Of a stretch of 64,000 nt of DNA, positions 33,167-57,725 are shown one piece after another; position 1 is the first letter of the stretch; each line of letters starts with the position of its first letter. This stretch comes from Notolepis coatsorum (lineage: Eukaryota > Chordata > Actinopteri > Aulopiformes > Paralepididae): positions 86,193,796 through 86,257,795 of the forward strand of contig OZ020589.1 of the NCBI GenBank assembly GCA_963971535.1, given 5' to 3'. The position numbers and the translations under genes are program-made. The notes beneath the pieces were generated by a model, which was not told where the DNA came from, ran no database searches, and saw nothing but the letters and a program-made list of their open reading frames with translations.

Positions 33167-34362
33167 GTATATCAAAGCAGGGTAGCCGGACCAGCACTCA
33201 CAGGTTCAATGTTTTTTATTGGCAGCCTGAGTCAAAAGCAGACATGTTTCGGACAATGTCCTTCATCAGTGGTATGGCTAGCACTGGAAATGCATTCAAG
33301 GTGATGTTTAAATACACCTGGCAGGTAAATGACACGGCAGGAAATGACATCACAACGCAGGTGTGCCTATGCAATATGACTAAATGAATGACCTATCAAA
33401 AAGAGTCCAATCATAATTTATACATATGTATAGATATAACTATATAATCAATAAATATTTATAAACAATACAATACAAAACGAAACAAAACAAAATTACC
33501 AGAAACTTGATAACATATAGCATGCCCTTTAATTTATAGGGCTAATTGAGCCACTTTACTTAATTGAATTAATTAATTTCAAATTATCCATTGGGCATCT
33601 TTGTGAATCATGCCTCTAGTTTGGCAACAAACAACATCTTTAATCAGACCAGAAATAACAATGTGGGAGTAAGGAGGTTAAAGGAAACAGGTTAAGACGT
33701 TTTCTTCATTCATACCTTTAGGTTCGATACAATTGAACAGGTGGATATAATAACATTCACGTTGCAGCAGCAGCTTGTGTCTGTCTCCACCTCGCGCTGG
33801 CCTGAGTACTAACTCTAGTCCCATATATTTGAGGTCATTGACGGTATGCTTACACTTAGAGAAATGCCGAGCTACCGATGACTTGACATCTAAATTCCTC
33901 ACAGCACATTTGTGTTCACTTATTCTTGATTTAAAGGCTCTCGTTGTTTTGCCCACATAGGAAAAATTACAAGGACATTTTAGCAAATACACCAGATTGG
34001 ACGAATTACACGTAATCCGTCCTTTGATTGGGATATTTTTCCCCGTTTTTGGATGTGCGAAAAATTTATCTTTAATCATACCCTGGCACTGAACACAGGA
34101 TTGGCAGGGAAAATTTCCATCTGGGATGTTGGACATAAAATGAGAAGGTTTCTTTAAGGGCAAATCAGTTTTGACTAGGAGATTAGATAAATTCGCTTGT
34201 CTCTTGTAAAAATAGTTAGGCGAATGCTGAAACGCTGTCCCTATGAGAGGGTCGGACTGCAGAATATGCCAATGTTTATTGACAATTTCAGTTACAGTTT
34301 CTCTCGTAATAGGGCTGTAAGTAGACAACGTGGCCCTGTCGATATGCTTGGTTTTATTAAAG
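33167..34362 (-). mobile_element. Penelope-like element, inverted 3' fragment (GIY-YIG part)
   Basis: Minus-strand copy of the C-terminal end and 3' UTR of the same element as 51224-53268. The frame 33678-34328 encodes the last ~215 residues including LVYLLKCPCNFSYVGKTTRA and FKSRISEHK, a GIY-YIG endonuclease core typical of Penelope-like elements. The frame is intact here, whereas the plus-strand copy has two stops. A ~47-bp deletion relative to 51990-52060 lies near 34331. Such inverted partial copies attached at the 5' side are a known structural habit of Penelope-like elements. Confidence 0.87.
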
Positions 34363-35199
34363 GCATTGTCAACATTTCAGATGTATTATTGAGCGACCCA
34401 CACCATAATATCCTGTCTAAAGGCTTATCTTTTGTAACAGCCTGCAAGGTGGATGCATTTACTACCAAGGTAGAGCTATTTAAGTTTTTTAGAAATATTA
34501 AGTTGAAAGCATTTTATGCCAGAGGGTTTGATAAGAGAACTCAATATGCTAATGAAAATGTGTTGATAAGTGATGATGATGATGCTGATGCTAGGCCTGA
34601 GATAGAGCCAGACACCTTTAAAAGAAAAGTATTTAAACCCCGTAGTCTGTTTACTCCCCATCTCAATCCTCCCTCAGTTGAAACTTTCTGCAGATTAGTA
34701 CAAAGTGATGTCCTTGAGTTATGTGAGACCAGTCACAAAGCCCATCTTTATCCAAATTTACTTGAATCGGAGTCTGCAGCACTGAAGGAGCTCATGAAGA
34801 AGGATGATTTAATTTTTAGAAAAGCTGACAAGGGGTCTGGTATCGTGCTCCAAAACAAGAGCTCGTATATATCTGAGATAAACAGACAATTGAATGAGAT
34901 TGAGGTATATACCCTTCTAAATTCAGACCCTGTGTTCAGATTTTCTACGGAAATCAAAACGGTCCTTAAAAGCCTGAGATTGTCTGAGGTAATTACAGAA
35001 AATGAATTTAAGTTTATGTTCGTAGAGTACCCGGTTACTCCTATTATTTACACTTTACCTAAAATCCATATGATTAACCCTCCTGGTAGACCTATTGTTT
35101 CCGGTATTGGCTCTGCCACAGAAAAAATATCTCAGTTCATTGATGCGCATATTAAGGATTTGGCCTCTTCTCAGCGTGGTTACTTGAAGGATACTACTA
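34363..35199 (+). mobile_element. Penelope-like element, N-terminal half of RT ORF (before insertion)
   Basis: Open frame reading NISDVLLSDPHHNILSKGLS, FVTACKVDAFTTKVELFKFF, FRKADKGSGIVLQNKSSYIS, TPIIYTLPKIHMINPPGRPI and VSGIGSATEKISQFIDAHIK, ending LKDTT at 35197. These are the N-terminal and first RT blocks of Penelope-type reverse transcriptases. The frame is cut at 35199/35200 by the 16-kb insertion and resumes at 51226 with FLNRL. In the intact element the protein would prime reverse transcription at a nick made by its GIY-YIG domain. Confidence 0.88.
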
Positions 35200-35827
35200 C
35201 ACAGGAAAAACTGGGGAGTCATTTTCCCAGAGTAATTATTACGGAGTTATTATTTTCCTCTCAAGTAGTCATATTTACTCCATTTGGGGCATAATCATTG
35301 CCTGTGGCCAATAGAGTGAGAGTAAAGTTCCAGAAGAGTTTCTATTGGAGTAATACAGCATTGGTCACGCCTACTATCCATATAATTCCCAAAGGTGCCG
35401 ACGCCATCTTTCTCTCTCGCTTCAAGCTCAGGTATACCAGCAAGAGCGCAATACAGCGATATTTTCCTTCTCTTGGATGCCAAATACCAGGTAAGATTAT
35501 TATTATTATTTGTTAATTTATTAAACAGCAATGTGTGTAACTAATTTGCAACATTACAGCTAAGCCACAGAGCCATCTATCACGATGTTCGCATGTTAGC
35601 TGCTATACGTTTGCACGCACGCTATTAAATAAACGTTTTACAGTTGTATGGACAAGTATTCAATTATCAACAGTATTGCTATCAGGGACAGTGCACATTA
35701 ATCAACATGTCGGTTTTCATGTAAAATGTATATGAGCTAGTGTATAGCCAGAAGCTAATTTCCACCTGTATAGGCCTGAGACCATACCTGTAGACCATGC
35801 CTGTAGGCTGTTGTTAAAAGTAGTGAT

Positions 35828-37421
35828 CAGTGATGCCACAGATTACTTGTAAAAGTAATCCGATTACTGATTACTGATTACTCCTTTAAAAAGTAATCCA
35901 AGTTACTTTACTGATTACTTGATTATCAGAGTAACTTAGTTACTTTGAAAGTAACTAGGTTACGAAGTCGTCGTCGTTCCCCCAACAGTTTTTTTAAAAC
36001 GCTTTATTGAAAGTGCATAAATTGTTTTTAACATGTTTCTCTGCACATAACGTAAATTGTTAAACTAGTGCTTCAGCTTCTGTAGTATGGTAAAGCAACA
36101 GTCTATGATGCTCACAGCATTAGAGCAGCCAGCCAGTGGTTTTACAAAACCAGTGTATATAATCCATTCACATCTAACAAATGCAGGCTGAACTATTCAA
36201 TTATATCAACTGTAACTATTAAATTGTTTTTATAAATGTCTCTCTATAAACATACAATGCAGTCTCTCTTTAACATGTAAATTAACTGTAAATCTGGCAA
36301 ATAAGAGCTTTTGCTCTGCCACCATCAGTCCTCCTGTACCTAGTCGAAGCGTCGTAGTGTTGTGATTCCAGATGCTTTCAATGCAATTGGATGTGCTGTT
36401 TTTAGCGGTAGACAGTATTTACGTTTAGGTCGCTTTCACATATAGTTTTGGTGGACTCGGTGCGGTTCTGGGGGTGAAGTTGAAACATCTGAACAATGTC
36501 ACGCGGTCGAAAAGGGCGCTTGTCTATTGGACAGTGGAAATGTGTGTGTGGCTGCTGCGATCCCGTGTGTGCGCGCGCGCGCGTGTGTGTGTGTCTGTGT
36601 GTGTACTGCGGAGCCCTTCAGAATGAATGAATGAATGAAAACTTTATTAACAGATTGCAGAATGGGTACAGTACAGTACGGCTCAATACATACAATTGTT
36701 AAGGGGATGCAGACCAGAGAAAGACTTTCGTCTTGTTTACATCAGGGTCCCCCATTTTCAATTCATCGGAGCCGAGTTTTGACATGGCATTGATCCATTG
36801 TTCTATTGAAGCACATTACCACCATCCTCTCGCTAAACAACTTGTAGACCACGGTGTTTTTATGAGTGCCCACAAGTAGCTGTTTTAATAATATAATAAG
36901 CCGCGCGCCTCGGTAATAATAATAAGCCGCGTTTTTTCTTCCTGTAAGCGTTTTGGGGTGGAATTCTCAGACGAATGCAACGGAGCCCTGCCGTCACACG
37001 ATTGGCGCATATGTCAAATGACGTGCTGTGAAGACCCGCCCTACTCTGCCTCTGATTCGCAGACTGTGGATGGGGAATGTGATTGGGCCAAAGCAGAGTC
37101 ACTCACAGACAGAGAGTCCAGTCACGCCGCGGGCCACATTCTTGTGTAACCCTTTCACTGCCACACCACGTCACTCCCAAATAAGAAAAACAGCTCAAAA
37201 ATGTATTTTTGACTGTCGAAAACGAAATAAAATACTGCATTCCGCCTGCATTATGAATTTATGATGAGATAGTAACGAAATAGTAATGCACAGCCACTTG
37301 GACAAGTAACTGCAATCAGATTACTGGCTTTTAAAGATTAACGCGTTAGATTACTATTTTCGGGGAAAAGTAATCAGATTACAATAACGCGTTACTTAGT
37401 AACGCGTTACCGGCATCACTG
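35828..37421. mobile_element. hAT-type element (1594 bp)
   Basis: Ends CAGTGATGCCACAGATTACT and the inverse of CAGTGATGCCGGTAACGCGT. Exact 8-bp direct repeat GTAGTGAT at 35820-35827 and 37422-37429. Copy B of the host duplication shows the empty site. It is a member of the fish hAT group with the GTAACGCGTTACT terminus. No transposase is visible. Contains a nested (CATT)n-tailed retroposon at 36619-36770. Confidence 0.9.
36619..36770 (-). mobile_element. (CATT)n-tailed short retroposon, minus strand
   Basis: Third copy of the family at 1874-2215 and 3950-4095, with (GAAT)4 then AAAACTTTATTAACAG, TGCAGAATGGGTACAG and CGTCTTGTTTACATCAGGG. Confidence 0.7.
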
Positions 37422-38217
37422 GTAGTGATATAACTATATCCATACAAAAACTGACTTATTAAGAACATACAAGACAAGTAGACATAGTACAGGAGATGGA
37501 ACAATTATATGTTACATGTTGGCGTTTTTTGCTGAAACGGTGGCAGAGACAACGTGTGTTTTACTCTAAATAGAGTCACCGTACATTACAGCTAAGCCAC
37601 AGAGCCATCTATCACGATGTTAGCATGTTAGCTGCTAGCACGCACGCTATTAAATAAACGTTTTACAGTTTTATGGACAATAACTTAAGAACAGGTACGT
37701 CGGTGCAACACGAGTATTCAATTATCAACAGTATTGCTATCAGGGACAGTGCACATTAATCAACATGTCGGTTTTCATGTAAAATGTATATGAGCTAGTG
37801 TTAGCCAGAAGCTAATTTTCACCTGCATGCGGCTATACCTGTATAGGCCTGAGACCATACCTGTAGACCATGCCTGTAGGCTGTTGTTAAAAGTAGTGAT
37901 ATAACTATATCCATACAAAAACTGACGTATTAAGAACATACAAGACAAGTAGACATAGTACAGGAGATGGAACAATTATATGTTACATGTTGGCGGATTT
38001 TGCTGAAGAGACAACGTGTGTTTTACTCTAAATAGAGTCACGTAAATTTGCCGCAATGTGCTGTAGGTTGACTGTTTTACTAGTGGTAAATGGACATAAC
38101 AAGTTAATTTGACGCACTGTTCGGTTCAACAAGTGTTTATTTGAACCATTGTACTGGGTTGACTAATTTGTGTGTTCTGCCTCCATGTATAATATAATGG
38201 AAACTTGTGGAACTATC

Positions 38218-38336
38218 CTCACAGTAAATTTCACAGAGTAAATTTTACTCAAACTGAGTCAATTTGAGCCCAAGACGTGAGTAAAGTTTTACTCAGTTTG
38301 AGTAAAATGTACTCAGCGAAATTTACTGTATGGTGC
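38218..38336. mobile_element. Short palindromic MITE related to the right terminus of the 16-kb element
   Basis: Left arm CACAGTAAATTTCACAGAGT, AAATTTTACTCAAACTGAG; right arm is its near inverse, ending AGCGAAATTTACTGTA. The left arm resembles the inverted right terminus of the 16-kb transposon (CACAGGAAAATTCGCAGAGT, CAAATTTACTCAAATTGAG). It is either a MITE of the same family or the old left end of an inner 13-kb unit. Confidence 0.6.
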
Positions 38337-38435
38337 TTTTGTAATATTTTCTAATTGTAACACTCCTCATAATGCATGAGTTGTTGTGCCCTATATGTAT
38401 CATCTTAGTAACTGTTATTATTTATTTGCCATCAG

Positions 38436-41400
38436 ATGCAGGCTGTACGTGTTAAACACGTTGACCGGCAGAAATTCATCTGTTTTGAGGGCCAATTGAC
38501 CTTCACAACTTTTTTGGAGTGTGGTGAGTGAAACATTTTGCACAGCGTGCCGTTGGTTCTCAAAATGGCGTCCGCCTTGATAGTTAGGAACCAAATGGAC
38601 CCTTATTGGTCTGTAACTCTGACTGTGAACACATGGACCCCAACGTCCATTGTACACCGTCAAGAGTTAAATTAACATTGATTTTACAATATAAATTGGG
38701 GTCCCAAAGATACAAATGCCATTAAATGGGTGCCCTTGGAATTAAAATGGTTGAGAATCACTGCTAGAGCCGTACAAATATTGTCTTATGGGGGTCCATG
38801 GCACATCTTTTCAAATGGGGGGTCTGTGGGCTAATTGTCCATTTGGGGGGTCCTTGACATGAAATGTTTGAGAACCACTGCCCTATGCAACAACATACTG
38901 GGTATCAGTTTAGGCTTTCCCTGCATGTTAATTTAAGCTGTAGGCCTACAGTACAAAGCACAATCCATTTTATTTAGGATAGAGTGAACCAATCAATGTC
39001 TTACACCCCTTCCTGACAGGCAGTGACGCGAGCGAGCGTGATTGCGAAAATGATTAAAATGTATTCGTTTCAATCAGACTATCCTGACCTGCCACGAGCG
39101 ACAGCAAACTGAGCGGCGATGTCGTTCCCCCCTCAAATATTCGCTCGCTGTGTCTCTAGTTGAGCGATTACGCGGCCGAGTCACGCCCCTAAACACTTTT
39201 TATTGGTCAAGAATCGCAGGCTGCTTTGCCCCTGTGTGCTTCCAGGTAACACACACACAGACACACCCGGACACGCGCCGCCTCATATCAGGACAGTGTC
39301 GCGCACGATTTCGTCTCCAGTTCGCACGCTCGCTGCCTGTCAGGAACCGGTGTTAAGTATGTCAATTAAGGCTGTCAATCTTCCTCATATGATCACATTT
39401 TCAGTGGCTATTTTAATATCCCATTTTATGACATTTTAATTAATACAAATTAAATAAATTGCACAACAGATTTATCAATAAGCTTGTGCAATCTTGTTTT
39501 GTCTATAGTTGCCAAGAAATTTGAAATTCCTAGTACCTTGGACTTAAAGGTCTATGATGACTCAAACACTGAAGTCGACGACGAGGCGTTTCAATTTCTT
39601 CTAAAAAAACCAGACCTGGGTGTGTTGGAGATTTGTTCACCCCAAGACTCAAATCCTGAAGGTGAGTTGCTAACATGGAGCCTTATAGCCTCATCCATAC
39701 AGTCCTGGCTGCTTGAAGCCTTTTTACAACATTTCCGGGTTCCCGTTTTTTTCGCTCTGATTGGCCAGGTCATGTGACATGAGCGGCAATCGTGGGACGG
39801 CAAGTTTCTACACTGGTTAAGGGCACTCTTCGAAGTTGGTTAAGGTTAGAGTTTGTCTTAGAGCATGGCGATAGAACGCCAGGTAGTTTGCAGGCTGTTC
39901 GACGCGGAAATGGGCAAACACGCTATTGGGCGCACATGTCACATGACCTGGCCAATCAGAGCGCCGGAAACGCGGATGCGTTGTAAAAAGGCTACACGTG
40001 TCCTGGCTAACCTAAAATGTCACACAGGTACTGTGTATTTTTGTACTTTGAAATGATCTTTGTATATATGCCCAATGTAACGTGTGGATCCTTCCTAATC
40101 TAATGTGGTCTTTTTACATTACACTTGTCACAAACATTCCTATCTAATCACACTTATATGTCTACATGATTGTTAGATTCAGTGAGGACCTCTGCAAGCA
40201 ACTCCAGCAGCCAAAGCTCCGTTCTCAGCTCTGGTGCAGACAATGAGGGGGAGTCTGATGACACCATCATTTTGCAGTCTAGTCCTGTTCCAAGAAACGG
40301 TGCTGACCTGACTCGTATCACTCTGGTAAGCTTTGCATATGACTGTTTGAAATGGAGATGGTGACTCTGATAAAGGGGTAGCATGGGCATTGGGGATGGC
40401 CAAGTACAATTGGGGAGAAAATGGGGGGGGGGGGGTCATGGTTTACATTTGTCACCTTAACCCTTTCACTGCCGCACAACAGCAGGTTAACCCTTTCACT
40501 GCCGCACTACAGAAGGTTAACCCTTTCACTGCCGCACTACAGAAGGTTAACCCTTTACTATCACATACTGTACCACATACTGTATACCACATACTGTACC
40601 ACATACTGTACCACATACTGTACCACATACTGTATACAACATACTGTATACCACATACTGTACCACATACTGTACCACATACTGTACCACATACTGTATA
40701 CCACATACTGTACCACATACTGTATACCACATACTGTACCACATACTGTACCACATACTGTACCACATACTGTATACCACATACTGTACCACATACTGTA
40801 TACCACATACTGTACCACATACTGTACCACATACTGTACCACATACTGTACCACATACTGTACCACATACTGTATACCACATACTGTACCACATACTGTA
40901 CCACATACTGTACCACATACTGTAACACATACTGTACCACATACTGTACCACATACTGTACCACATACTGTATACCACATACTGTACCACATACTGTACC
41001 ACATACTGCACCACATACTGTATACCACATACTGTACCACATACTGTATACCACATACTGTACCACATACTGTATACCACATACTGTACCACATACTGTA
41101 TACCACATACTGTACCACATACTGTACCACATACTGTATACCACATACTGTACCACATACTGTACCACATACTGTACCACATACTGTACCACATACTGTA
41201 CCACATACTGTACCACATACTGTATACCACATACTGTACCACATACTGTATACCACATACTATACCACATACTGTATACCACATACTGGTACTAGTGTGG
41301 CAGTGAAAGGGTTAAATATACTTGGCCACCAAATGACTGTCTATCCATGTGTGTCCTCCCCCCCCCCCCTTTTTACTCCCGCTTAGATGACTGAAAAGAT

Positions 41401-43325
41401 TCTGAGGGACACAGCTGGAGGAGAGAGGATCATTGCCGATTATGCTCGGACGAAAACCCTAACGGATACCAGAAGACGCGACATGGTGAAGATATTGGTT
41501 GCGCACATGGCAAAAGAGCATGGGTAATTATGTTATCTAAACATTACGCACCCAATACACATTTTTGGTTTTTACTAAGATCCTCCTTTTTGCAGAATTG
41601 GTAAATGATAAATGGTTATCCAAAGCGCTTTACATAGATTGTGCAGAAGGCATTGGCACAGCAATACTTTTGTTTGGATCTCATACTTGTGTATGTGTGC
41701 ACTGTAGGACGAGTCCTTCAAGGCGTGTTAAAGAAGACTACGCAAAGGGCATCACTGCCTTATTCCCATACCTGGCCGATCCCCAGGGCAATTTGGGATA
41801 TGTAAGTACATCAGGGAAAAGTGCAGAGAGACATTTCATCGGCGACTCAGTGCATGTGTGTTCCTGTGCGTCGCCCATCTTGCGTGTGTGTTAAAACTGC
41901 ATGACAAATAAAGACTTCTAGTCTAACAATTATTATGTTTATAGGTCATTCTTGTTATATAATTTCTAGGGATGTTCGATATTGGCTTTTTTTTACCAAT
42001 ATCCGATATACCGATATTGTCCAACTCTTTAATTTCCAATACCGATATCAACCGATACCGATATATGCAGGGTTTCTCCCCCCCCCCCCCCCCAAAAGGA
42101 ATAATTTCAGGTAATTAACATTAGGCTACATATCTCTTGTCGTGGAATTAACACAACATTATGCATAACATTATCCAATCACATGCATGGTACATAAAAC
42201 ACCAACCCCATTACTCCTCACTTCTCTGGAATTGCTTAAAAGGGCTGTGCGGAGTACGATTTCAACTAAATATTTGTTAACATTTCTGTATGCTGACCAT
42301 TTCTCCTAACCTCAACAATTTAAGAACCACAGATGTCCTACCTGTTGACCTTGATTTTAGCAATTCTTCAGAGAAGGGCATGTGTTAAGTTTTAAGGAGA
42401 GAAATAAACACATTTACACATGCCCATTTAAACCAAATAATTTTTTTTTTTTCTCTTTACTTCTTGTGTTTTAGGAGCAGTATTACAATCCAGTAGATGG
42501 GAGTGGGTTTCTGGCATGGAGGGTGAAATCACTTCAAAAGATAGCATCAGAGGGACAAAAGAAGAGCCGTAATGTTCAGCCACTGATCGGTATGTAATTT
42601 AGATTGTCCCAGTCCACTGTTTATCTAGCAACTGTGAAGATGGATCATTATAGTAAATGCATATCACTGGAAAGTATTGCAGCAGTATGTGTGGTTTCTA
42701 CACTGTTACAGGTGGTCCAAGTTCTGGCGACAGAGCCCCCTTCTCTGAGGAAAACCAGCTAACCACAGACACCCAGTTTCGTGAGGCCAGTGCACTGATG
42801 AAGCATACAACTGATGAAGCAATCATCAAGGAGAAGATGAAACAGACCTTCACCCATCGCCAAGAAATGATGCATGACCCAATCAAGTCCTCTGAAATAT
42901 TCACCACCTTTCCACGATTCCTAGACATCACAGGAATGGTATGTGGCTTGCATTAAAGTCTAACTGAAATAAAAAATGACCTTTTTAAACAATTTTGATC
43001 ACATCCCTGGTCATAGGGTGAACCTATTTAATAGGGCTGTCCCTGACTAAGGATTTGGATGGTCGACTAGGATTGTTAAAAAAAAAAAAAAAAAACGTTT
43101 TTTTTTTTTTTTTTTTTTATCATTCCATTTGGGCTGTGGGGGGTGCTTAATGTCTGAAGGAGTCAACTGAAGGCTTCTTGTCCTCTGCAAAAGCATACAA
43201 TTGGTCCACTGATGAAATCCTCTTTCAGTGCCTCTGTGCCTGTTTTCGTAGGCAGTTAGCCTCTGGTATGCCTGCCATTAGCGTTAGCCACGCTTCTATG
43301 CCTCTTTTCTTTTGAAAAAAATTAT

Positions 43326-43356
<31 letters not shown>

Positions 43357-45413
43357 TTATAATATTATATTCGACTAAGAGGTTGGCCAGTCGACTACGG
43401 CCCCTTTCGACCGATTAGTCGACTAATCGATTAATAGGGGTCAGCCCTACTATTTAACAATGTATGACAAAAAAATTTCAACCATGTTTTATTCCATCTT
43501 GTCTGCAGATTGAGCAGGATTTCAGTCTGATGTTTGGTGATGACATCTCTGCAAAGTTCCTGGAGAAGTGGCCTACTTTCTGCAGGCAGAAAGTCCTTGA
43601 ACAAAGCCGTGGCCTCACCCAGACCGGCGACCTTCAAGACCTGCTTCAGAATGCTGAATCCACAACAGACACAATAGAACTGAACAATGGTATGCTTGAA
43701 TTAAAGGAATATAATAATGGAAGGGTGAATTGTTTTTTAAACAAATGGAAACACAGCTTTTAGTCAAATGTATTTCTGATTTTTTTTATTTAATTTTTTG
43801 TATTTTTAGCATGGGACAGTGAAATGTCCTCCCTCTTGCTTCTTGTCCACCTCCTGCCACCATCACCTCAGGGACGCAACAAGAGACCGGGAAAGCTCTC
43901 AGCCAGAGAAGCCATTGACTCCCTTGTGAAGTTCATAAAGGTAAGGTTACAGTTGCCTATATTATCGGCCGATATTGGCATTCAAATGTGATATAGGAAA
44001 ATATCGGTAAAAAAAAATTAATTATTCTTTTTACATTTCTATAACCAACTTTTATTTACCCAGGCAAGTAAGAACAAATTCTGTGTCAAAAGTATGCATA
44101 ATGTTATGTTAATTCCACAACAAGACATATGTAATGTTAATTACCTGAAATTATTCAGTTTTTTGGGGGGGAAACCCTGCATATATCGGTATCGGTTGAT
44201 ATTGGTATTGGAAATTAAGAGTTGGACAATATCGGTATATCGGTAAAAAAAGCCAATATCGAGCATCCCTAGTTACAGTTGAATTAAAGTATAAGAAGGA
44301 TCACTGTTCTGTCTAGGGGTGCACGATATTGATTTGTTGACCCCGATATCGATACCAATAACTTTCTGCTCCTCAAGGTCGATACCGATAACCGATATAT
44401 ATATTTATTGTACTATAATTATACATTTTTTTATGTATATTCCTGTAGTTTTGACCTAACCAGATTTATCATGACATGAGCGTTACTATATGAACAAAAC
44501 AAAGCCAAGAGAACAGTTTTGACTCTTCAAATAAAGTGACTATTTATTTTTCCAAATAAATATAATTTGAGTCGATCACAAAATTCACAATCCGTCAATG
44601 TCATTAACAATGTGTTTCCCTGAACAACTAAAAACCAACAGGTATTGTGCTTTGTCAGTAGGGATGCTGTTCACATTTGAACCGATACGGTACCGGTACC
44701 TGTGAATCGATACCGGTACCCAACGGTACCTTTTTCGGTACTTTAGTCTCTAAAAATGTAATCTACCTACCTCAGTTGTGAGAAGAAAAAAATCCAAACT
44801 TCAAATAACCACATTTTCGACCGTTTTTGGCTTGCCTTTGCCCCGACTGCTTTGTTGTTGAATCAAGTCAAATCCTAAATAAGCATATATAGTGCGTGTG
44901 AATGTTGACATGAAAAGAAAAAAGTAAAAAAAATATATATATTTTTTTTATTATCAGAGCTATCAATACTTTTATCGGGATGACGTCATAATTGCTGATA
45001 TCGGCCTGATAATTATCGTGCATCCCTGATATTGACCTGCATGATTGAAATCATGCAAAGACCACGGTTTGCAAACCGTGACTAATTTTAATAGCAAGAC
45101 TAATGAAGTTCTCTTGTCACAGACTGGGACCAGTATCCAGGGGCATTTGGACAGCATCACGGAGAGCCTTCAACCCTATCTGCTTGCTGTGGGGACCCAG
45201 AGGAGTGTGATTCACAAGTACTTCATTGTGATTGACAAACATGCAATCCCTTGTAAGTCACCAGACTCTCTTGCCTCTTTTGATGAGCTTTTCAAAGCTC
45301 ATTTTGTCTTTGGTACCTCATACAACCGGGATCTGGCCAATATGTACAACTTCTTGCAAACCGCCATTTACAAGATCGATGCTGCTACCACTAATTGTCA
45401 ACCCCAGGGTTAA
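38436..45413 (+). CDS. Ten-exon SAMD3-like protein (fish-expanded family), 521 codons
   Basis: Coding exons: 38436-38523, 39509-39661, 40177-40325, 41387-41523, 41708-41801, 42475-42589, 42712-42938, 43509-43689, 43810-43940, 45123-45413. All nine introns are GT-AG, and the phases join into one open frame. Residues 1-75 look like a ubiquitin-like CIDE-N/PB1-type fold (VAKKFEIPSTLDLKVYDDSN, TEVDDEAFQFLL, GVLEIC). A Ser/acid-rich linker follows (about 80-130), then the conserved family core: DMVKILVAHMAKEHG, FPYLADPQGNLGYEQYYNP, TFTHRQEMMHDP, FTTFPRFLDITGMIEQDFSL, LLLLVHLLPPSPQGRNKRPG, QPYLLAVGTQRSVIHKYFIV and LASFDELFKAHFVF. No SAM domain is visible; the name follows database habit for relatives and the function is unknown. 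One extra C in CCCC near 45402-45405 shifts the last codons, so the stop at 45411 comes ~10 residues before the frame's probable natural end at 45441. ATG 38436 sits beside a possible acceptor (CCATCAG), so an upstream exon may exist. Confidence 0.78.
38700..38998. other. Intron 1 segment with hAT-like end
   Basis: Ends near 38880 in GTTTGAGAACCACTG, a common fish/vertebrate hAT terminus (inverse of CAGTGGTTCTCAAAC). The opposite end is not clear; a degenerate version (GGTTGAGAATCACTG) is present near 38750. Confidence 0.45.
38999..39356. mobile_element. TIR-bounded MITE in intron 1 of the SAMD3-like gene
   Basis: Left end CTTACACCCCTTCCTGACAG then GCAGTGACGCGAGCGAGCGTG. Right end is its inverse: CGCACGCTCGCTGCCTGTCA then GGAACCGGTGTTAAG. 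No clean target duplication, so the superfamily is not assigned. Confidence 0.65.
39710..39999. mobile_element. hAT-type MITE in intron 2 (family shared with 57350-57725)
   Basis: Starts TGCTTGAAGCCTTTTTACAA and ends TTGTAAAAAGGCTACACGT, with exact 8-bp repeats GTCCTGGC at 39702-39709 and 40000-40007. Contains TTGGCCAGGTCATGTGACAT in inverted pairs. The inverted copy of this intron near 49960 lacks the element. Confidence 0.88.
40390..40437 (+). mobile_element. SINE 3' scrap
   Basis: GATGGCCAAGTACAATTGGG then GAGAAAATGGGGG is the 3' end of a tRNA-derived fish SINE of the kind seen at 53911-54395. Confidence 0.55.
40461..41311. mobile_element. piggyBac-type MITE filled with minisatellite (intron 3)
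   Basis: TTAA at 40457-40460 and 41312-41315. Ends CCCTTTCACTGCCGCAC and the inverse (GTGTGGCAGTGAAAGGG). The left end is repeated four times as a ~31-bp unit (40461-40557). The rest is a 12/17-bp array. Confidence 0.8.
40558..41290. repeat. 12/17-bp minisatellite, CATACTGTACCA units
   Basis: About 730 bp of CATACTGTACCA with frequent longer units CATACTGTATACCA. Every frame is open through it; not coding. It lies within intron 3 of the SAMD3-like gene. Confidence 0.95.
41812..41925 (+). mobile_element. SINE 3' tail fragment (intron 5)
   Basis: Shares GAAAAGTGCAGAGA, ACATTTCATCGGC, ACTCAGTGCATGTGTG and GCATGACAAATAAAG with the SINE at 9058-9425. Confidence 0.65.
41968..42130. mobile_element. 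hAT MITE end (intron 5), related to 43956-44271
   Basis: Begins TAGGGATGTTCGATATTGGC and continues with CCGATATACCGATATTGTCC and GATACCGATATATGCAGGG, then a C-run. It matches the reverse complement of 43956-44271. The far end is not identified. Confidence 0.65.
43032..43449. mobile_element. hAT-type MITE (418 bp, intron 7)
   Basis: Ends TAGGGCTGTCCCTGACTAAG and the inverse (AATAGGGGTCAGCCCTA), with exact 8-bp repeats CTATTTAA at 43024-43031 and 43450-43457. Interior has poly-A/T runs and GTCGACTA motifs. Confidence 0.88.
43956..44271. mobile_element. hAT-type MITE (intron 9)
   Basis: The right end is the inverse of TAGGGATGCTCGATATTGGC, and the left end has CGGCCGATATTGGC. The 10-bp repeat GTTACAGTTG (43946-43955, 44272-44281) includes the 8-bp target duplication. 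Its central part carries AACAAATTCTGTGTC and a TTATTTACCCAGGCAAG stretch. Confidence 0.78.
44316..45029. mobile_element. hAT-type element(s), degenerate (intron 9)
   Basis: Outer ends TAGGGGTGCACGATATTGAT and TTATCGTGCATCCCTGA are inverted, but no clean target duplication is visible. A second hAT-like start (TAGGGATGCTGTTCACATTT then GAACCGATACGGTACCGG) lies inside at 44660. Confidence 0.6.
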
Positions 45414-45454
45414 AGAGATGAGGGCTCGGATGCTGCACTGATTTCTTTTTTATA

Positions 45455-45590
45455 CTGAGAGGATATTTTATCTCGGGCCTCTGATGCTGCACAGACTTTT
45501 GATACTGAGAAGATATTTTATCTTGAGGCCTCTGATGCTGCACAGACTTTTGATACTGAGAAGATATTTTATCTTGAGGCCTCTGATGCT
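45455..45590 (+). repeat. 51-bp repeat (about 3 copies) between the SAMD3-like gene and the transposase ORF
   Basis: Unit GCCTCTGATGCTGCACAGAC, TTTTGATACTGAGAAGATAT, TTTATCTTGAG. The period of 51 bp is 17 codons, and the last two copies are open in the frame of the downstream transposase ORF. The first copy is diverged with a 1-bp deletion and an in-frame TGA. Confidence 0.85.
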
Positions 45591-45608
45591 CCAGTGTTTT
45601 TTGATAAG

Positions 45609-48041
45609 ATGTTGTGTTTCATTTGCAAAAACTCTCAGGCAAATGCCAATTCACTGATGAGGCACTTAAGGTTGATCCACGGACTTTGTTCAGGAAGGAC
45701 ACTTCGTCTTAAATGTGGTCAGCCTGGTTGTTTACATGTCTTTTGCACTTTTTCTGGGTTTCGAAAGCATCTTAAAGCACGTCATCAACCATGTGATGAT
45801 CCTGGTGAAGGCCGCTCTACAGCTGAACATTTAGCTGAAAGTTATGTTGATGACTTTCCATCAGGCAGTGCCCCTTCTGACCCAGTCCTTCCAGTCCTTC
45901 TTAATAATAGTCTTGTAGACAGCTGTGCTGCAACAGTAGCTGAACTTAAATTGGCAGGTGTAGGTGAAACAATAATCAACTCTTTGGTAACTTCAATGGA
46001 AGTGATTGTTGATGATATCCATAATCAAGCAAAACAATATGTGAAGCAGTGTCTATCTTTACAGGAACCTATCAAAAGTGAGGTTGAGTGTAAAATTGAT
46101 CAGTGTTATGAAGAAATTGAAAATCCCTTTTGTATCTTAAATTCTGAAACTAAAAGAAGGCAATATTTTACAGAGAAGTGGGGAAGGGTAGACCCAGTTG
46201 AATATGTCCTTGGTACAAGATTTGATACCCTGCGCAATCGGACTACTGGAACTTATGATCAGGCTGTTGTTACTGATAAATGTGTTTATATCCCAATTTT
46301 GAAAACATTAGACTTTATTTACAAACACCCTAATATAAAAGAGATGATGCAGAGTGATTCCAGTTTAAGAGAAGATCTTCTTAATGACTTGTGTGATGGA
46401 GAGTATTTCAAGAGTCATCCTCTATTTTCAAAACAGAAGCATGCAATTCAGGTGCAGCTTTTCTATGATGATTTTGAATGCGCGAATCCGTTGGGGAGTA
46501 AAAAGGGAATACATAAATTAGGAGCAATCTATTTCACCTTGCGTAATTTTTCTCCAAAGTACAACTCAATTCTGCTTAATATTCATTTGGTCGCTTTATT
46601 CCATGCCCAAGACATTAAAACACATGGCTTTTCTAAAATACTTGCTCCACTTGTGGAAGATATTAAAATACTGGAGAAGGATGGAATTAAGGTCCCATTG
46701 TATGATCAGCCAGTGTATGGAACTATTGTCCAAGTTACAGGTGACAACCTTGGTATTCACGGTTTGTTTGGTTTCGTAGAATCATTCAGTGCCAGATATT
46801 GTTGCCGCTTTTGTCTTGCTGAGAAAGAGGACTTTCAGACGGAATTCAAAGAAGATTCACCCAAGATAGTTATGCGAACTCAAGCACTTCATGCAGAACA
46901 CTGCCACACAATGGAGACTACTATTGGTCTTCCCTATGTGATGGGAGTTAAACGTTCTTGCATTCTAAATTCCTTGCAGTACTTCAATACATGTGACAAT
47001 TTCTCTGTCGATATTATGCATGATATCTTGGAGGGCGTGGCACAATATGAAATGAAACTGCTAATACTACACTTGATTAAAAACTACACAACATCAAAGG
47101 AAATAGACTTGAGAATTAAGAGCTTTAACTATGGTTACCTGGAACAAAACAACAAGCCACCTGCATTGAAGTTAGTAGAGACCTCAAATGACTTGGGGTT
47201 AAATGCAATCCAATCTTGGTGTTTACTTCGCAATCTACCACTTATCTTTGGAGACTTGGTTTGTCCAAATGATCAACACTGGTATTTGCTTCTGCTGTTG
47301 CTTCAAATAGCAGATATTGTATTTTCTCCCAGGTTATCAACTGGCATTACTATTTATTTAAAACACTTGATTGCAGAGCACCACGGGTTATTCAAGCATT
47401 TGTTTCCCAACAGGAGGCTACTACCAAAGCATCATTTTATGGTGCACTATCCTACATGTATTCGTAAAATTGGACCACTTTTGCATGTCTGGTGCATGCG
47501 CTATGAAGCGAAGCATAATTTCTTTAAAAAACAACTAAAAGGCTTCAAAAATATAACTAAAACGTTGGCAAAGAAACACCAAAGTCAAGTAGCATACAAT
47601 TGGCAGACATTTGATCCCAACAGACTGGTGCTTGGTCCAAGTAAAATGGTAGCATTAAATGTGATGGACAGAGGCTGTGAGATAGCGGAGACTGTTCAGG
47701 TACCAAGTGACACCAAGGTGTTAAATGTTAGATGGGCCAAACACCATGGAAATATGTATCGTCCAGGTTTAGTTGTTTGCCTTAAAGTTCTTAGTGAGGT
47801 TCCAGTTTTTCACAAAATCCACCGTGTTGTTCTTAAAGATGAGAGGTTACTGTTGTTTACATTTGCACTACAAACCGTGTCTCTGGATGACCATTTTTAT
47901 GCATTTAAAGTTGTGTGTACTACAGATGGACCTCATGTAGTTGATGTCAAAGAGCTTTTGTTTTACAAAGCATTCGATATACAGATGTCATACAGTGATG
48001 ACGATTCAAGCTCATTTATTGTTCCATACTGTTTCCTGTGA
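45609..48041 (+). CDS. TNP2/CACTA-type transposase-like protein with two C2H2 fingers (~810 aa)
   Basis: Predicted transposase that would cut and join the ends of the element it sits in. Residues from the first ATG: two C2H2-type fingers (CFICKN...RHLRLIH and CGQPGC...KHLKARH) within the first ~65, then a low-similarity linker. The core has FYDDFECANPLGSKKGIHKL, LHAEHCHT, QVTGDNLGIHGLFGFVESFS, CCRFCLAEKE, NFSVDIMHDILEGVAQYEMK, HHFMVHYPTCIRKIGPLLH and CMRYEAKHNFFKKQLKGF. Asp in FYDDF, Asp in VTGDN and Glu in RYEAK are candidate DDE residues by position (inferred). The frame is uninterrupted over 2.4 kb and AT-rich like its surroundings. It also stays open upstream of the ATG through the 51-bp repeats, so the true start, or an upstream exon, is uncertain. 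It lies 170-200 bp after the SAMD3-like gene on the same strand. Confidence 0.8.
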   Translation: MLCFICKNSQANANSLMRHLRLIHGLCSGRTLRLKCGQPGCLHVFCTFSGFRKHLKARHQPCDDPGEGRSTAEHLAESYVDDFPSGSAPSDPVLPVLLNNSLVDSCAATVAELKLAGVGETIINSLVTSMEVIVDDIHNQAKQYVKQCLSLQEPIKSEVECKIDQCYEEIENPFCILNSETKRRQYFTEKWGRVDPVEYVLGTRFDTLRNRTTGTYDQAVVTDKCVYIPILKTLDFIYKHPNIKEMMQSDSSLREDLLNDLCDGEYFKSHPLFSKQKHAIQVQLFYDDFECANPLGSKKGIHKLGAIYFTLRNFSPKYNSILLNIHLVALFHAQDIKTHGFSKILAPLVEDIKILEKDGIKVPLYDQPVYGTIVQVTGDNLGIHGLFGFVESFSARYCCRFCLAEKEDFQTEFKEDSPKIVMRTQALHAEHCHTMETTIGLPYVMGVKRSCILNSLQYFNTCDNFSVDIMHDILEGVAQYEMKLLILHLIKNYTTSKEIDLRIKSFNYGYLEQNNKPPALKLVETSNDLGLNAIQSWCLLRNLPLIFGDLVCPNDQHWYLLLLLLQIADIVFSPRLSTGITIYLKHLIAEHHGLFKHLFPNRRLLPKHHFMVHYPTCIRKIGPLLHVWCMRYEAKHNFFKKQLKGFKNITKTLAKKHQSQVAYNWQTFDPNRLVLGPSKMVALNVMDRGCEIAETVQVPSDTKVLNVRWAKHHGNMYRPGLVVCLKVLSEVPVFHKIHRVVLKDERLLLFTFALQTVSLDDHFYAFKVVCTTDGPHVVDVKELLFYKAFDIQMSYSDDDSSSFIVPYCFL

Positions 48042-48132
48042 TTTAAAAAAGGAAAAGAGAAAATCACTAAGCTCTTGAACTATTGCACTGGGGATGAACA
48101 CTATTAGTTTTCTTTTATTTCTTTGGGGTGAA

Positions 48133-49700
48133 CAGATGCTGCTGTCACTTTATATAGAGGCCAAAATGTAATTGATCGATTACTCTCCCCATGAAGCCTT
48201 AATTGAAGTCATGGTGATTTCTTTTTGTTGCATTCCTGAGCCAATAATTTGATGACTGGCTTGAATTATTGGCTCAGGAATGCGACAAACAAACAAATCT
48301 CCATGAATTCAAGGATTCATGGGGTGTGTAATTGGTAGATTTCTTTTTTTGGGTGAGCTATCCCTTTTTAAAAGGGTGTACAGATGCTGCTGTCACTTTA
48401 TATAGAGGCCAAAATGTAATTGATCGATTACTCTCCCCATGAAGCCTTAATTGAAGTCATGGTGATTTCTTTTTGTTGCATTCCTGAGCCAATAATTTGA
48501 TGACTGGCTTGAATTATTGGCTCAGGAATGCGACAAACAAACAAATCTCCATGAATTCAAGGATTCATGGGGTGTGTAATTGGTAGATTTCTTTTTTTGG
48601 GTGAGCTATCCCTTTTTAAAAGGGTGTACAGATGCTGCTGTCACTTTACAGAGGCCAAAATGTAATTGATCGATTACTCTCCCCATGAAGCCTTAATTGA
48701 AGTCATGGTGATTTCTTTTTGTTGCATTCCTGAGCCAATAATTTGATGACTGGCTTGAATTATTGGCTCAGGAATGCGACAAACAAACAAATCTCCATGA
48801 ATTCAAGGATTCATGGGGTGTGTAATTGGTAGATTTCTTTTTTTGGGTGAGCTATCCCTTTTTAAAAGGGTGTACAGATGCTGCTGTCACTTTACAGAGG
48901 CCAAAATGTAATTGATCGATTACTCTCCCCATGAAGCCTTAATTGAAGTCATGGTGATTTCTTTTTGTTGCATTCCTGAGCCAATAATTTGATGACTGGC
49001 TTGAATTATTGGCTCAGGAATGCGACAAACAAACAAATCTCCATGAATTCAAGGATTCATGGGGTGTGTAATTGGTAGATTTCTTTTTTTGGGTGAGCTA
49101 TCCCTTTTTAAAAGGGTGTACAGATGCTGCTGTCACTTTACAGAGGCCAAAATGTAATTGATCGATTACTCTCCCCATGAAGCCTTAATTGAAGTCATGG
49201 TGATTTCTTTTTGTTGCATTCCTGAGCCAATAATTTGATGACTGGCTTGAATTATTGGCTCAGGAATGCGACAAACAAACAAATCTCCATGAATTCAAGG
49301 ATTCATGGGGTGTGTAATTGGTAGATTTATTTTTTTGGGTGAGCTATCCCTTTTTAAAAGGGTGTACAGATGCTGCTGTCACTTTACAGAGGCCAAAATG
49401 TAATTGATCGATTACTCTCCCCATGAAGCCTTAATTGAAGTCATGGTGATTTCTTTTTGTTGCATTCCTGAGCCAATAATTTGATGACTGGCTTGAATTA
49501 TTGGCTCAGGAATGCGACAAACAAACAAATCTCCATGAATTCAAGGATTCATGGGGTGTGTAATTGGTAGATTTCTTTTTTTGGGTGAGCTATCCCTTTT
49601 TAAAAGGGTGCAGATGCTGCTGTCACTTTACAGAGGCCAAAATGTAATTGTCTTTTATTTATGACCTTTTTTCTATCGATTACTCTCCCCATGAAGCCTT
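48133..49700. repeat. Palindromic satellite array, ~246-bp unit, six full copies plus a partial
   Basis: Unit starts (CAGATGCTGCTGTCACTTTA) are at 48133, 48381, 48629, 48875, 49121, 49367 and 49611, giving periods of 248, 248, 246, 246, 246 and 244. Copies are almost identical. Each contains a ~135-bp palindrome from CCCCATGAAGCCTTAATTGA to AAGGATTCATGGGG, whose inner arms are TTGCATTCCTGAGCCAATAA and its inverse around a short spacer. It sits just downstream of the transposase ORF. Confidence 0.95.
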
Positions 49701-49723
49701 GAAGTCATGGTGATTTTTGTATA

Positions 49724-50460
49724 TAATGGAGTTGTTTGCAGAGGGGCTCACTGAATCTAACAATCACGTAGACATATACCAAGTGTGATTAGCAAGAGAG
49801 GAATGTTTGTGACAAGTGTAATGTAAAAAGATTAGGAAGGATCCACACCAAGCAAGTTCTTCCTCAGACGTGTTTTTTTTTTTTTTTACTATGTTACATT
49901 ACATTGGGCGTATAGAAACAAAGATCATTTCAAAGTACAAACATATACAGTACCTGTGTGACATTTTGGATGAGGCTAGGCTCCATGTTAATAAGCAACT
50001 TGGGGTGAACAAATCTCCAACACACCCATGTCTGGTTTCTTTAACTGAAACGCCTCCTTGTCGACTTCAGTGTTTTAAGTCATCATAGACCTTTAAGTCC
50101 AAGGTACTAGGAATTTCACATTTCTTGGCAACTGAAAACAAAGATTGCACAAGCTTATTGATGAATCTTATTTTATTAATGACCTTTTTTTCTTTCTATC
50201 GATTGCCCCTTGAAGTCATGATTCTCACACGCTGTTGTAAAACTGTTTGCATCCCAACTGAAACGCCTCCTTGTCGACTTCAGTGTTTTAAGTCATCATA
50301 GACCTTTAAGTCCAAGGTACTAGGAATTTCAAATTTCTTGGCAACTGAAAACAAAGATTGCACAAGCTTATATTGATGAATCTTATTTTATTAATTTTTT
50401 TTTCTATCGATTGCCCCTTGAAGTCATGATTCTCACACGCTGTTGTAAAACTGTTTGCAT
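49724..50460 (-). repeat. Inverted copy of SAMD3-like exon 2, intron 2 and start of exon 3
   Basis: The reverse complement matches 39440-40207, including exon 2 (AAGAAATTTGAAATTCCTAG, GACTTAAAGGTCTATGATGA), the intron 2 flanks without the hAT MITE, and the exon 3 start (TTAGATTCAGTGAG). The exon 2 part is present twice in direct orientation (50036-50250 and 50255-50460), so the region was also tandemly duplicated. Frameshifts and deletions make it non-coding. Confidence 0.9.
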
Positions 50461-50569
50461 CCCAAAGGATATGCCTGCATGTTGCAAATAAAAGTGCATT
50501 GTTAAATACTGATTTCTGCTTTGCCCCCGTTTATTTTAAATGTATTATTCCAGAGTAAATTATTATTTA
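50461..50569. other. Spacer
   Basis: Includes GCAAATAAAAGTGCATTG, a possible polyadenylation signal for leftward or rightward transcripts of the element. No other feature. Confidence 0.3.
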
Positions 50570-51085
50570 ATTCTATATTGAGTGAAATATGATATTCTAT
50601 ATTGAGTGAAATCTATTCTATATTGAGTGAACTACAACTCCATATTGAGGGAATTACAACTCTATATTGATTAAAATACCACTCTATATTGAGTGAAATA
50701 TGATATTCTATATCGAGTGAAATCTATTCTATATTGAGTGAACTACAACTCCATATTGAGGGAATTACAACTCTATATTGATTAAAATACCACTCTATAT
50801 TGAGTGAAATATGATATTCTATATCGAGTGAAATCTATTCTATATTGAGTGAACTACAACTCCATATTGAGGGAATTACAACTCTATATTGATTAAAATA
50901 CCACTCTATATTGAGTGAAATATAACTTTAAGTATCTCTATATTGAGTGAAATATAACTTAAAATATCTCTATATTGAGTGAAATATAACTCTATTGAGT
51001 GAAAATATAACTCTATATTGATTAAAATACCACTCTATATTGAGTGAAATATAACTTAAAATATCTCTCTATATTGAGTTAAATG
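50570..51085. repeat. AT-rich array of CTATATTGAGTGAAAT units with 112-bp higher-order period
   Basis: The short unit CTCTATATTGAGTGAAATA is repeated with variants. A 112-bp higher-order unit recurs at 50589, 50701 and 50813 (marked by GATATTCTATAT). It lies just inside the right terminus. Confidence 0.9.
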
Positions 51086-51223
51086 TTAACACTAAATGGA
51101 GTAGAAATAACTCTGAAGATTTAACTCTGTGACAAGAGTCATTTTCGTCGGAGCCAATACTGTCTTTTTGGGAGTAAAATTTTACTCAATTTGAGTAAAT
51201 TTGACTCTGCGAATTTTCCTGTG

Positions 51224-53268
51224 TACTTTTTTGAACAGGCTCTCGTCCTGCAACATTAGTCCTACAGACTTACTAGTTACCATAGATGTAGTCAGCCTTT
51301 ACCCCAGCATTCCACATGCAGATGCGCTGGACGCGCTGAGTTTTTATTTAAACTCGAGGGAAGTATTACTCCCCCCTACAGAAGCGCTGGTTAGTTTAAC
51401 CGATCTAGTTCTAACTAGAAATTATTTTAGATTCCAAGATAAATACTATTTACAAAACAGAGGCCTCAGCATGGGCTCTCCAGCCGCTGTGAACCTAGCC
51501 AATCTGTATATGTCCAAATATGAAGTGGATCATATCTTTAATAATAACCCGTTTGAGAAATGTGTCAAATCGTATATGCGCTATATTGACAATCTGTTTT
51601 TTATTTGGTCTGGTTCATCATCCGAACTTTTTGCCTTCCTTGAGTACCTGAACTCCTGTAGAAGAACGATAAAGTTTACATTAAAGTTTGATATGTATAA
51701 TTTACCCTTCCTCGATGTTTTGATCAAGAAAGCCCCAGATGGCATCTCATTACACACAGAGGTTTTTAAAAAGGAGACGGATCGTAACTCGTTCTTGCAT
51801 TATTCTAGTTATCACACCCCAGCCTTGAAGAACAGTCTTCCTTATAGCCAAATTCTTCGATATAAGAGAATATGTGATACTGACGATACATTTATTGCAC
51901 AAGCAAAGGTACTCCGTGGCAGTTTCCACGAGAGAGGATATAGTGCTGATTTGACACTAAAAGCCTTTAATAAAACCAAGCATATCGACAGGGCCACGTT
52001 GTTTACCCCCAGAAAGAAAGAAGATAAACCTGACAAAGTATCTTTCGTGTCTACTTACAGCCCTATTACGAGAGAAACGCGGAGTATTGTCAATAAACAT
52101 TGGCATATTCTGCAGTCCGACCCTCTCATAGGGACAGCGTTTCAGCATTCGCCTAACTATTTTTACAAGAGACAAGCGAATTTATCTAATCTCCTAGTCA
52201 AAACTGATTTGCCCTTAAAGAAACCTTCTCATTTTATGTCCAACATCCCAGATGGAAATTTTCCCTGCCAATCCTGTGTTCAGTGCCAGGGTATGATTAA
52301 AGATAAATTTTTCGCACATCCAATAACGGGGAAAAATATCCCAATCAAAGGACGGATTACGTGTAATTCGTCCAATCTGGTGTATTTGCTAAAATGTCCT
52401 TGTAATTTTTCCTATGTGGGCAAAACAACAAGAGCCTTTAAATCAAGAATAAGTTAACACAAATGTGCTGTGAGGAATTTAGATGTCAAGTCATCGGTAG
52501 CTCGGCATTTCTCTAAGTGTAAGCATACCGTCAATGACCTCAAATATATGGGACTAGAGTTAGTACTCAGGCCAGCGTGAGGTGGAGACAGACACAAGCT
52601 GCTGCTGCAACGTGAATGTTATTATATCCACCTGTTCAATTGTATCGAACCTAAAGGTATGAATGAAGAAAACGTCTTAACCTGTTTCCTTTAACCTCCT
52701 TACTCCCACATTGTTATTTCTGGTCTGATTAAATATGTTGTTTGTTGCCAAACTAGAGGCATGATTCACAAAGATGCCCAATGGATAATTTGAAATTAAT
52801 TAATTCAATTAAGTAAAGTGGCTCAATTAGCCCTATAAATTAAAGGGCATGCTATATGTTATCAAGTTTCTGGTAATTTTGTTTTGTTTCGTTTTGTATT
52901 GTATTGTTTATAAATATTTATTGATGATATAGTTATATCTATACATATGTATAAATTATGATTGGACTCTTTTTGATAGGTCATTCATTTAGTCATATTG
53001 CATAGGCACACCTGCGTTGTGATGTCATTTCCTGCCGTGTCATTTACCTGCCAGGTGTATTTAAACATCACCTTGAATGCATTTCCAGTGCTAGCCATAC
53101 CACTGATGAAGGACATTGTCCGAAACATGTCTGCTTTTGACTCAGGCTGCCAATAAAAAACATTGAACCTGTGAGTGCTGGTCCGGCTACCCTGCTTTGA
53201 TATACTGAACTTTACGGGATTACAGCACCCAGTGTGAGAACTTGTGAGCGCGGTCTAACTTGACTATA
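51224..53268 (+). mobile_element. Penelope-like element, C-terminal half (RT core, GIY-YIG, 3' UTR)
   Basis: Continues the RT from FLNRL: LVTIDVVSLYPSIPH (first catalytic Asp), GLSMGSPAAVNLANLYMSKY, then YMRYIDNLFFIW, where the usual Asp pair has become Asp-Asn. Farther on are FLDVLIKK, HWHILQSDPLIG, CSSLVYLL-type block LVYLLKCPCNFSYVGKTTRA (GIY-YIG) and FKSRIS, followed by a TAA at 52456 and a TGA near 52578. The 3' UTR ends at 53268 before the target duplication. The catalytic change and stops show it is dead. Confidence 0.9.
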
Positions 53269-57349: not shown

Positions 57350-57725
57350 GCGTGTAGCCTTTTTACAACGCATCCGCGTTTCCGGCGCTCTGATTGGCCA
57401 GGTCATGTGACATGTGCGCCCAATAGCGTGTTTGCCCATTTCCGCGTCGAACAGCCTGCAAACTACCTGGCGTTTTATCGCCATGCTCTAAGACAAACTC
57501 TAACCTTAACCAACTTCGAAAGAGTGCCTAAGCTTAACCGGCGAAAGAACTTGCTGTCACGCTCTAAGACAAACTCTAACCGTAACCAACTTCGAAGAGT
57601 GCCTAAGCTTAACCAGTGTAGAAACTTGCCGTCCCACGATTGGCGCTCATGTCACATGACCTGGCCAATCAGAGCGCAAAACGGGAACCCGGAAACGCAG
57701 ATGCGTTGTAAAAAGGCTTCAAGCT
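57350..57725. mobile_element. hAT-type MITE, second copy of the intron-2 family
   Basis: Starts GCGTGTAGCCTTTTTACAAC and ends GTTGTAAAAAGGCTTCAAGCT in the opposite orientation to 39710-39999. Exact 8-bp repeats ACCTGGTC at 57342-57349 and 57726-57733. Longer than the other copy because of an ~85-bp internal tandem duplication (CTCTAAGACAAACTCTAACC, twice). Confidence 0.88.

Follow-up and report, generated by a model that had tools for sequence, protein, structure and literature searches.

A 64,000-nucleotide stretch of the Notolepis coatsorum genome (contig OZ020589.1, positions 86,193,796 to 86,257,795; hereafter the window) holds, between one pair of CACAGG...CCTGTG ends, a transposase open reading frame (ORF) and a spliced gene of ten coding exons. 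The locus raises the question of whether this second gene belongs to a mobile element or is a host gene carried along by one. We judge it probable that the window contains a recently amplified, probably autonomous EnSpm-like (CMC) transposon that uses two proteins of its own, the second serving as an accessory protein or terminus-binding regulator.

Insertion site and element boundaries

The element and the Penelope-like reverse transcriptase (RT) frame into which it is inserted were delimited as follows:

35200..51223, plus strand: whole element, 16,024 bp, CACAGG...CCTGTG ends, TA duplication at 35198-35199 and 51224-51225
51178..51223, minus strand: right terminal repeat (self-comparison, flank joining, same-genome copies)
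34191..35199, plus strand: target, left part of the Penelope-like RT frame (ORF list, flank joining)
51224..52457, plus strand: target, right part of the same frame (ORF list, Pfam scan, flank joining)

In the window sequence, the left terminal inverted repeat (TIR) starts at 35200 and the right TIR ends at 51223, both flanked by TA, and joining the flanks leaves the RT frame open across the insertion site. This restoration of the frame bears out the claim of an earlier note on this DNA that a single insertion with these ends and flanks splits the frame exactly. The right part of the frame gives a weak Pfam match to RVT_1 (E 0.0032, below the cut-off). Within the 64 kb, CCTGTGTA is present once and TACACAGG three times. 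Subtracting a hAT-like insertion and its duplication brings the length of the element to ~14.4 kb. To the eye, a minus-strand frame at 33678-34376 is similar to the C-terminal portion of the protein of the plus-strand Penelope-like frame (51195-52457), indicating that Penelope pieces lie in both orientations to the left of the insertion.

Both ends were used as queries against the same 3.42-Gb assembly, with the best 40 of 331 candidates scored for the left end (441 bases) and the best 40 of 402 for the right end (139 bases). All 40 scored left ends were 97-100% identical to the query. The right end of the window was a 100% match, and the remaining 39 were matched at 92% over 151 bp, by which the window copy seems to be short by ~12 bp there. 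Besides the window, 38 left and 20 right ends were read. CACAGG started at the identical base in 37 of the 38 left ends, the 38th lacking the first C, and CCTGTG was found in all 20 right ends as well as in the window. The dinucleotide preceding the left end was TA in 26 copies, CA in 5, TG in 5, CC in 1 and AG in 1, the last being the copy without the first C. Equal 2-bp flanks were present in all 11 copies read at both ends (9 TA, 1 TG, 1 CA). Comparison with copies in the same genome, proposed in the earlier note as a check on the boundaries, thus upheld them.

The element might also be a nested composite, with a mobile part that starts near 38218 and an older insertion making up the left 3 kb. 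A foldback at 38220-38331 does resemble the right end (83% over 46 nt) better than the left end does; however, the same foldback lies inside a second copy, on contig C8, the left ends read begin at CACAGG in differing flanks with the exception of one pair, and every copy with paired ends carries its matching duplication at the CACAGG end. These left-end positions and paired duplications refute 38218 as an element end and exclude a start there for the copies read, leaving a nested composite scarcely credible. Copies with ends mapping elsewhere, for example at 38218, had been named beforehand as evidence against a single 16-kb element, and no such ends occurred in the copies read.

Copies in the same genome

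A search with the transposase gave 56 scored places (the best 56 of 2462 loose candidates), all 99-100% identical and 55 of them without stops. Among the 30 transposase frames that were read, departures from the majority amounted to 0-6 of 2436 nt and were largest in the window copy; this narrow spread points to a recent amplification. The element has multiplied recently and is present in many near-identical copies in one genome. Older copies also exist: three (L120-L122) show 1.2 to 3.2% divergence from the window across the classes compared. These were considered as processed, intronless copies that would reveal the transcript; this was rejected, as they are older copies with introns present.

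Markers of the element were found near most of its ends. Among the best-scored matches, 11 of the 40 left ends (including that of the window) pair with a scored right end 13.4-26.0 kb away, and a transposase lies within 12 kb of 34 of the 40 right ends, scored or inferred from exon 10. Among the matches listed, a scored match to exons 7-8, exon 10 or the transposase lies within 31 kb of 32 of the 40 left ends; a further 5 have only a block antisense to the second gene and 3 have no marker. At 22 of the left ends the ten-exon gene is matched along with the transposase or the antisense block; as these are best-scored matches, missing markers carry little meaning.

Segmental duplication or assembly artefacts, in place of transposition, could in principle account for such copies. 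Two left ends on contig C43 (L063 and L064, at 88.12 and 88.13 Mb) lie 8.2 kb apart and have identical 30-base flanks, probably through a local duplication. The other 36 left flanks are mutually different, each of the 11 copies with paired ends is flanked by a 2-bp duplication of its own, and a copy on C7 at 59.68 Mb apparently sits inside another copy, at the exon 4/intron 4 boundary, as judged by eye from the flanks of L080 and L085. An origin of the copies by duplication or artefact is very unlikely.

The ten-exon second gene

The exons below, all on the plus strand, were defined by splice-phase analysis, to which copy comparison was added for exon 10; the first was placed by inspection.

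35400..35490: likely 5' untranslated exon, donor CAG/GTAAGA after 35490
38436..38523: coding exon 1
39509..39661: coding exon 2
40177..40325: coding exon 3
41387..41523: coding exon 4
41708..41801: coding exon 5
42475..42589: coding exon 6
42712..42938: coding exon 7
43509..43689: coding exon 8
43810..43940: coding exon 9, phase 0 at its 3' boundary
45123..45413: coding exon 10, with a late frameshift in the window copy

The earlier note had described a ten-exon gene with perfect phase continuity. This holds for splicing, as all introns in the window sequence are GT-AG and the phase is continuous throughout, but not for the last part of the frame: exon 10 of the window copy is 1 base longer near its end than in the 29 other copies measured, and the resulting shift ends the second protein of the window copy early. 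Two of the 29 compared copies (L004 and L012) were translated through the C-terminus. In the C8 copy (14,204 bp), the second copy examined throughout, the ten exons and their splice sites are all kept, and an open frame of 530 codons encodes a protein of 530 aa and 59.5 kDa with the C-terminal sequence PRVKEMRARMLH. This protein differs from that of the window at two further amino acids besides the C-terminus, and an exon-by-exon comparison of the two copies found 2 of 1275 nt different over exons 1-9.

The second gene accompanies the transposase in every copy checked. Exon 10 was present at all 30 transposase loci read (of the 56 matched), and the start of the transposase frame at all 30 exon-10 loci read; exon 10 was thus detected in 60 of 60 loci, and with 7 copies common to both sets these represent 53 different copies, including the window. 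The order of last exon followed by transposase is kept in all 53; a lack of any co-occurrence of the two genes at other loci had been named beforehand as counter-evidence. The distance between them is 488-497 bp in 29 of the 30 best-scored pairs and 542 bp in one, the latter fitting one additional unit of the 51-bp repeats described below. For exon 10, 83 of 3015 candidates were scored, with full-identity matches only on contigs up to C21, which accounts for 26 of the 56 transposase matches having no listed exon-10 partner; two unpartnered matches, on C4 and C6, do fall on contigs within that range. The constant association suggests that the ten-exon gene is a working part of the element and not a stray host gene.

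The first 77 residues of the second protein gave sub-threshold Pfam hints (best PF11543, E 0.011), and Pfam found no SAM domain either in the whole protein or in two pieces of it scanned alone. Relatives of solved structure, sought by sequence for this protein and for the transposase, were not found. The label SAMD3-like is therefore tentative: the second protein may resemble fish proteins annotated under that name. Searches of the open-access literature did not turn up such an identity, and among the papers listed we recognised none that links SAMD3 to transposons or to the expansion of fish gene families. One paper, in the part available, merely lists samd3-like among regulated zebrafish genes.

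The transposase

Two features make up the 3' coding part of the element:

45459..48041, plus strand: transposase ORF, 860 codons, first Met at 45609, 812-aa frame from Met
45447..45590, plus strand: tandem repeats of 51 bp that keep the frame and contain two acceptor-like CACAG sites (putative exon starts 45495 and 45546)

As the earlier note had recognised, the transposase ORF is intact and lies next to the ten-exon gene on the same strand. Its N-terminus has zinc-finger-like Cys/His pairs (zf-C2H2, E 3.3, below the Pfam cut-off). Candidate motifs picked by eye follow in the order D in YDDFE, D381, C401-C404, H611-H615 and E635 (812-aa numbering), a spacing that resembles that of RAG1. A different EnSpm-like element with two overlapping frames (L001, C6:153133834-153137205) holds the only match to Pfam Transposase_21 (PF02992) in the same genome, among the best 150 of 253 candidates. 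The 112 residues around the first D of the transposase align to the PF02992 protein of L001 with a score of 94, which none of 200 shuffles reached. Viral contigs searched with the transposase yielded no relative. A differently coded pattern of the FKAHFVFG motif had no match in the same genome and a KHHFL-type transposase pattern had one, about the number expected by chance by our own estimate; both patterns are too narrow to exclude other families. Exon 9, ending in phase 0, can be joined to either CACAG site in frame with the transposase, giving 1273 or 1256 aa, while a third acceptor site tried in the 51-bp repeats gave no longer frame.

Class assignment and known systems

The CMC/CMCT (EnSpm-Mirage-Chapaev-Transib) clade is marked by 5'-CA..TG-3' ends, a target duplication of 2 to 5 bp and, as a further criterion, the series D, D, C(2)C, H(3-4)H, E. 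Ends of this form are present here (37 of 38 left ends, 20 of 20 right ends and the window), as is a duplication of 2 bp (11 of 11 paired copies and the window), and both fit the clade as outlined in the available part of PMC12730594. The shared features as given there omit Transposase_21, which is a profile of only part of the clade. Defined strictly, CACTA elements have CACTA ends and a 3-bp duplication, and this definition fails for CACAGG ends and 2 bp. By these sequence features, the label "CACTA/EnSpm-like" used previously is retained in its EnSpm-like part and dropped in its strict CACTA part. Two features of the En/Spm-type two-protein design are present as well, namely a many-exon second gene in the same element and repeated subterminal motifs, the motif having been chosen post hoc.

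Large fish CMC-EnSpm elements with two proteins are already known. The available passages of PMC11202377 describe a CMC-EnSpm family in Trachurus and, in zebrafish, a CMC-EnSpm element that has two full proteins; the present element is similar to these as a large fish CMC-EnSpm element. It differs from the zebrafish element in its TIR (CACTCAAAAAAAT in zebrafish, CACAGGAAAA here) and in abundance: full copies number 3 in zebrafish and 6 in the alternate haplotype of Trachurus, compared with at least 55 full, stop-free transposase frames in the present genome. The passages on the zebrafish element leave the identity of its second protein unstated. According to the accessible part of PMC2613891, maize En/Spm needs two products, TNPA, which is made from 11 exons and binds the subterminal repeats, and TNPD, which comes from a large ORF. 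Maize En/Spm and soybean Tgmt* share with the present element a many-exon second product, a large transposase ORF and repeated motifs at both ends, but they have CACTA ends and a 3-bp duplication, and the transposase ORF of En/Spm lies in intron 1, whereas here it is downstream of the second gene (PMC2613891). SmTRC1 and other animal TRC elements are likewise animal relatives of CACTA with 2-bp duplications, but have CCC ends and a Transposase_21 domain; one ORF is named in the passages available, and the wordings "two ORFs" and "second ORF" occur elsewhere in the paper (PMC1636069). The ESTA families differ in being fungal and in having a TET/JBP dioxygenase as the extra gene (PMC12730594, in part).

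Subterminal regions, repeats and internal insertions

The remaining features of the element are listed here; strand is given only for the antisense relic.

35200..35349: left subterminal region, 7 GAGT/ACTC motifs in 150 bp (motif count)
35828..37421: hAT-like insertion, 8-bp duplication GTAGTGAT (empty site in the C8 copy)
38220..38331: foldback with GAGT/ACTC motifs, not an element end (self-comparison, motif count)
40562..41288: satellite with a 12-bp basic unit, 727-bp array in intron 3 (tandem-repeat analysis)
48126..49650: 246-bp tandem array (tandem-repeat analysis, copy alignments)
49727..50383, minus strand: antisense relic of the ten-exon gene, made up of two copies of exon 2, intron 2 and the first part of exon 3 (self-comparison)
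50572..51056: 22/111-bp array with abundant TTGAGT, belonging to the right subterminal region (repeat and motif count)

The motif GAGT/ACTC, picked after inspection of the sequence, occurs 9 times in the right 150 bp and 7 times in the left, compared with a mean of 0.84 per 150 bp in 1255 other windows of the 64 kb. Seven or more per 150 bp are reached at three places only: the left end, the 38.2-kb foldback, and the right end with the 22/111-bp array. The foldback, in the likely first intron, could be a related miniature inverted-repeat transposable element or an internal regulatory cluster. The antisense relic lies between the 246-bp array and the right end. It is 88-90% alike to the sense copy, with frame-breaking gaps in its exon 2 parts; it is present in the C8 copy and is 99-100% identical in all 40 scored matches (the best 40 of 578 candidates). 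Its divergence from the sense copy and its presence in every scored match make it look older than the current burst, and it is a possible source of antisense RNA.

Satellite arrays before the right end had been noted earlier and correspond to the 246-bp-unit and 22/111-bp-unit arrays; alignment ends in the former differ between copies by steps of about one unit. The hAT-like insertion (1.6 kb, ends CAGTGATGCC...GGCATCACTG) is absent from the C8 copy, where the empty site is intact. A repeat in intron 2 (39711-39998) recurs at 57351-57724 of the window with 98.9% identity over 178 bp. An inverted repeat pair in intron 5 (41966-42167) and intron 9 (44093-44272), 84% alike, is probably a separate small mobile element.

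Accessory protein or passenger

The second gene could be a passenger, captured once from the host by the founder of the family and hitch-hiking since with no role in transposition. As the family is young, a constant gene content could stem from a single recent founder; the window copy persists despite its shifted frame, and selection on the ten-exon gene is not detectable. In the three older copies, exons differ from the window by 1.7, 2.92 and 3.16% and introns by 1.5, 2.73 and 2.16%, with no sign of selection. Against a passenger, the window and C8 copies, which were examined throughout, both retain all nine introns with their splice sites, the two genes follow each other in the same order in the 53 different copies read, and the antisense relic makes the association of gene and element look older than the burst. 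A two-protein CMC-EnSpm element has moreover been described in zebrafish (PMC11202377, in the passages available). The earlier note had left the gene as passenger or accessory cargo; with the gene in all 53 copies and a two-protein design known in the group, we favour an accessory role and regard a passenger as unlikely.

Several results weigh against a recently amplified element that depends on two proteins. The copies read were the best-scoring ones, so their near-identity is biased upwards and the true spread among copies is larger. For the transposase, Transposase_21 gave no match even at E 10, single-sequence hhalign saw nothing, and the other ORF of L001 does not align to it, 70 of 200 shuffles being equally good. 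For the second gene, exon 10 is frame-shifted in the window copy, the whole protein has no Pfam match and no DNA-binding domain was found in it. Purifying selection was not detectable by an exon-intron contrast of the window and C8 copies (0 of 885 exon against 5 of 1666 intron differences, P 0.12, in an alignment that omitted part of the exons).

On the other side, the ends, the duplications, the copy number, the near-identity of the best copies, the two-gene content, the splice signals and the motif clusters were observed directly. Ten coding exons with a probable untranslated exon, a single-frame transposase and subterminal clusters form the same set as in En/Spm (PMC2613891, in part). In the mechanism that we propose, the large ORF would encode a DDE transposase that cuts the element at CACAGG and creates a 2-bp duplication, mostly of TA, on insertion. 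Its partner, the ten-exon protein, would most likely be an accessory factor or a regulator that binds the termini, comparable to TNPA, and would probably bind at the GAGT/ACTC clusters under both ends. A transcript most likely begins at the left end and extends across both genes, and the element may be active at present. A more elaborate version, which we hold to be doubtful, has one left-end promoter serving both genes, splicing from exon 9 into the 51-bp repeats to make an in-frame fusion of 1273 or 1256 aa, GAGT/ACTC clusters that are bound, and an antisense relic that damps dosage; on that view, most members of the SAMD3-like families annotated as host genes in fishes would belong to this transposon lineage.

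Should the second gene be integral to the element, proteins possibly counted as an expanded host family would be mobile-element sequence, and gene counts and analyses of family expansion would change. With its near-identical, stop-free copies, the family is a good candidate for an animal EnSpm-like element that is still active, one in which the role of the second protein is open to direct test.

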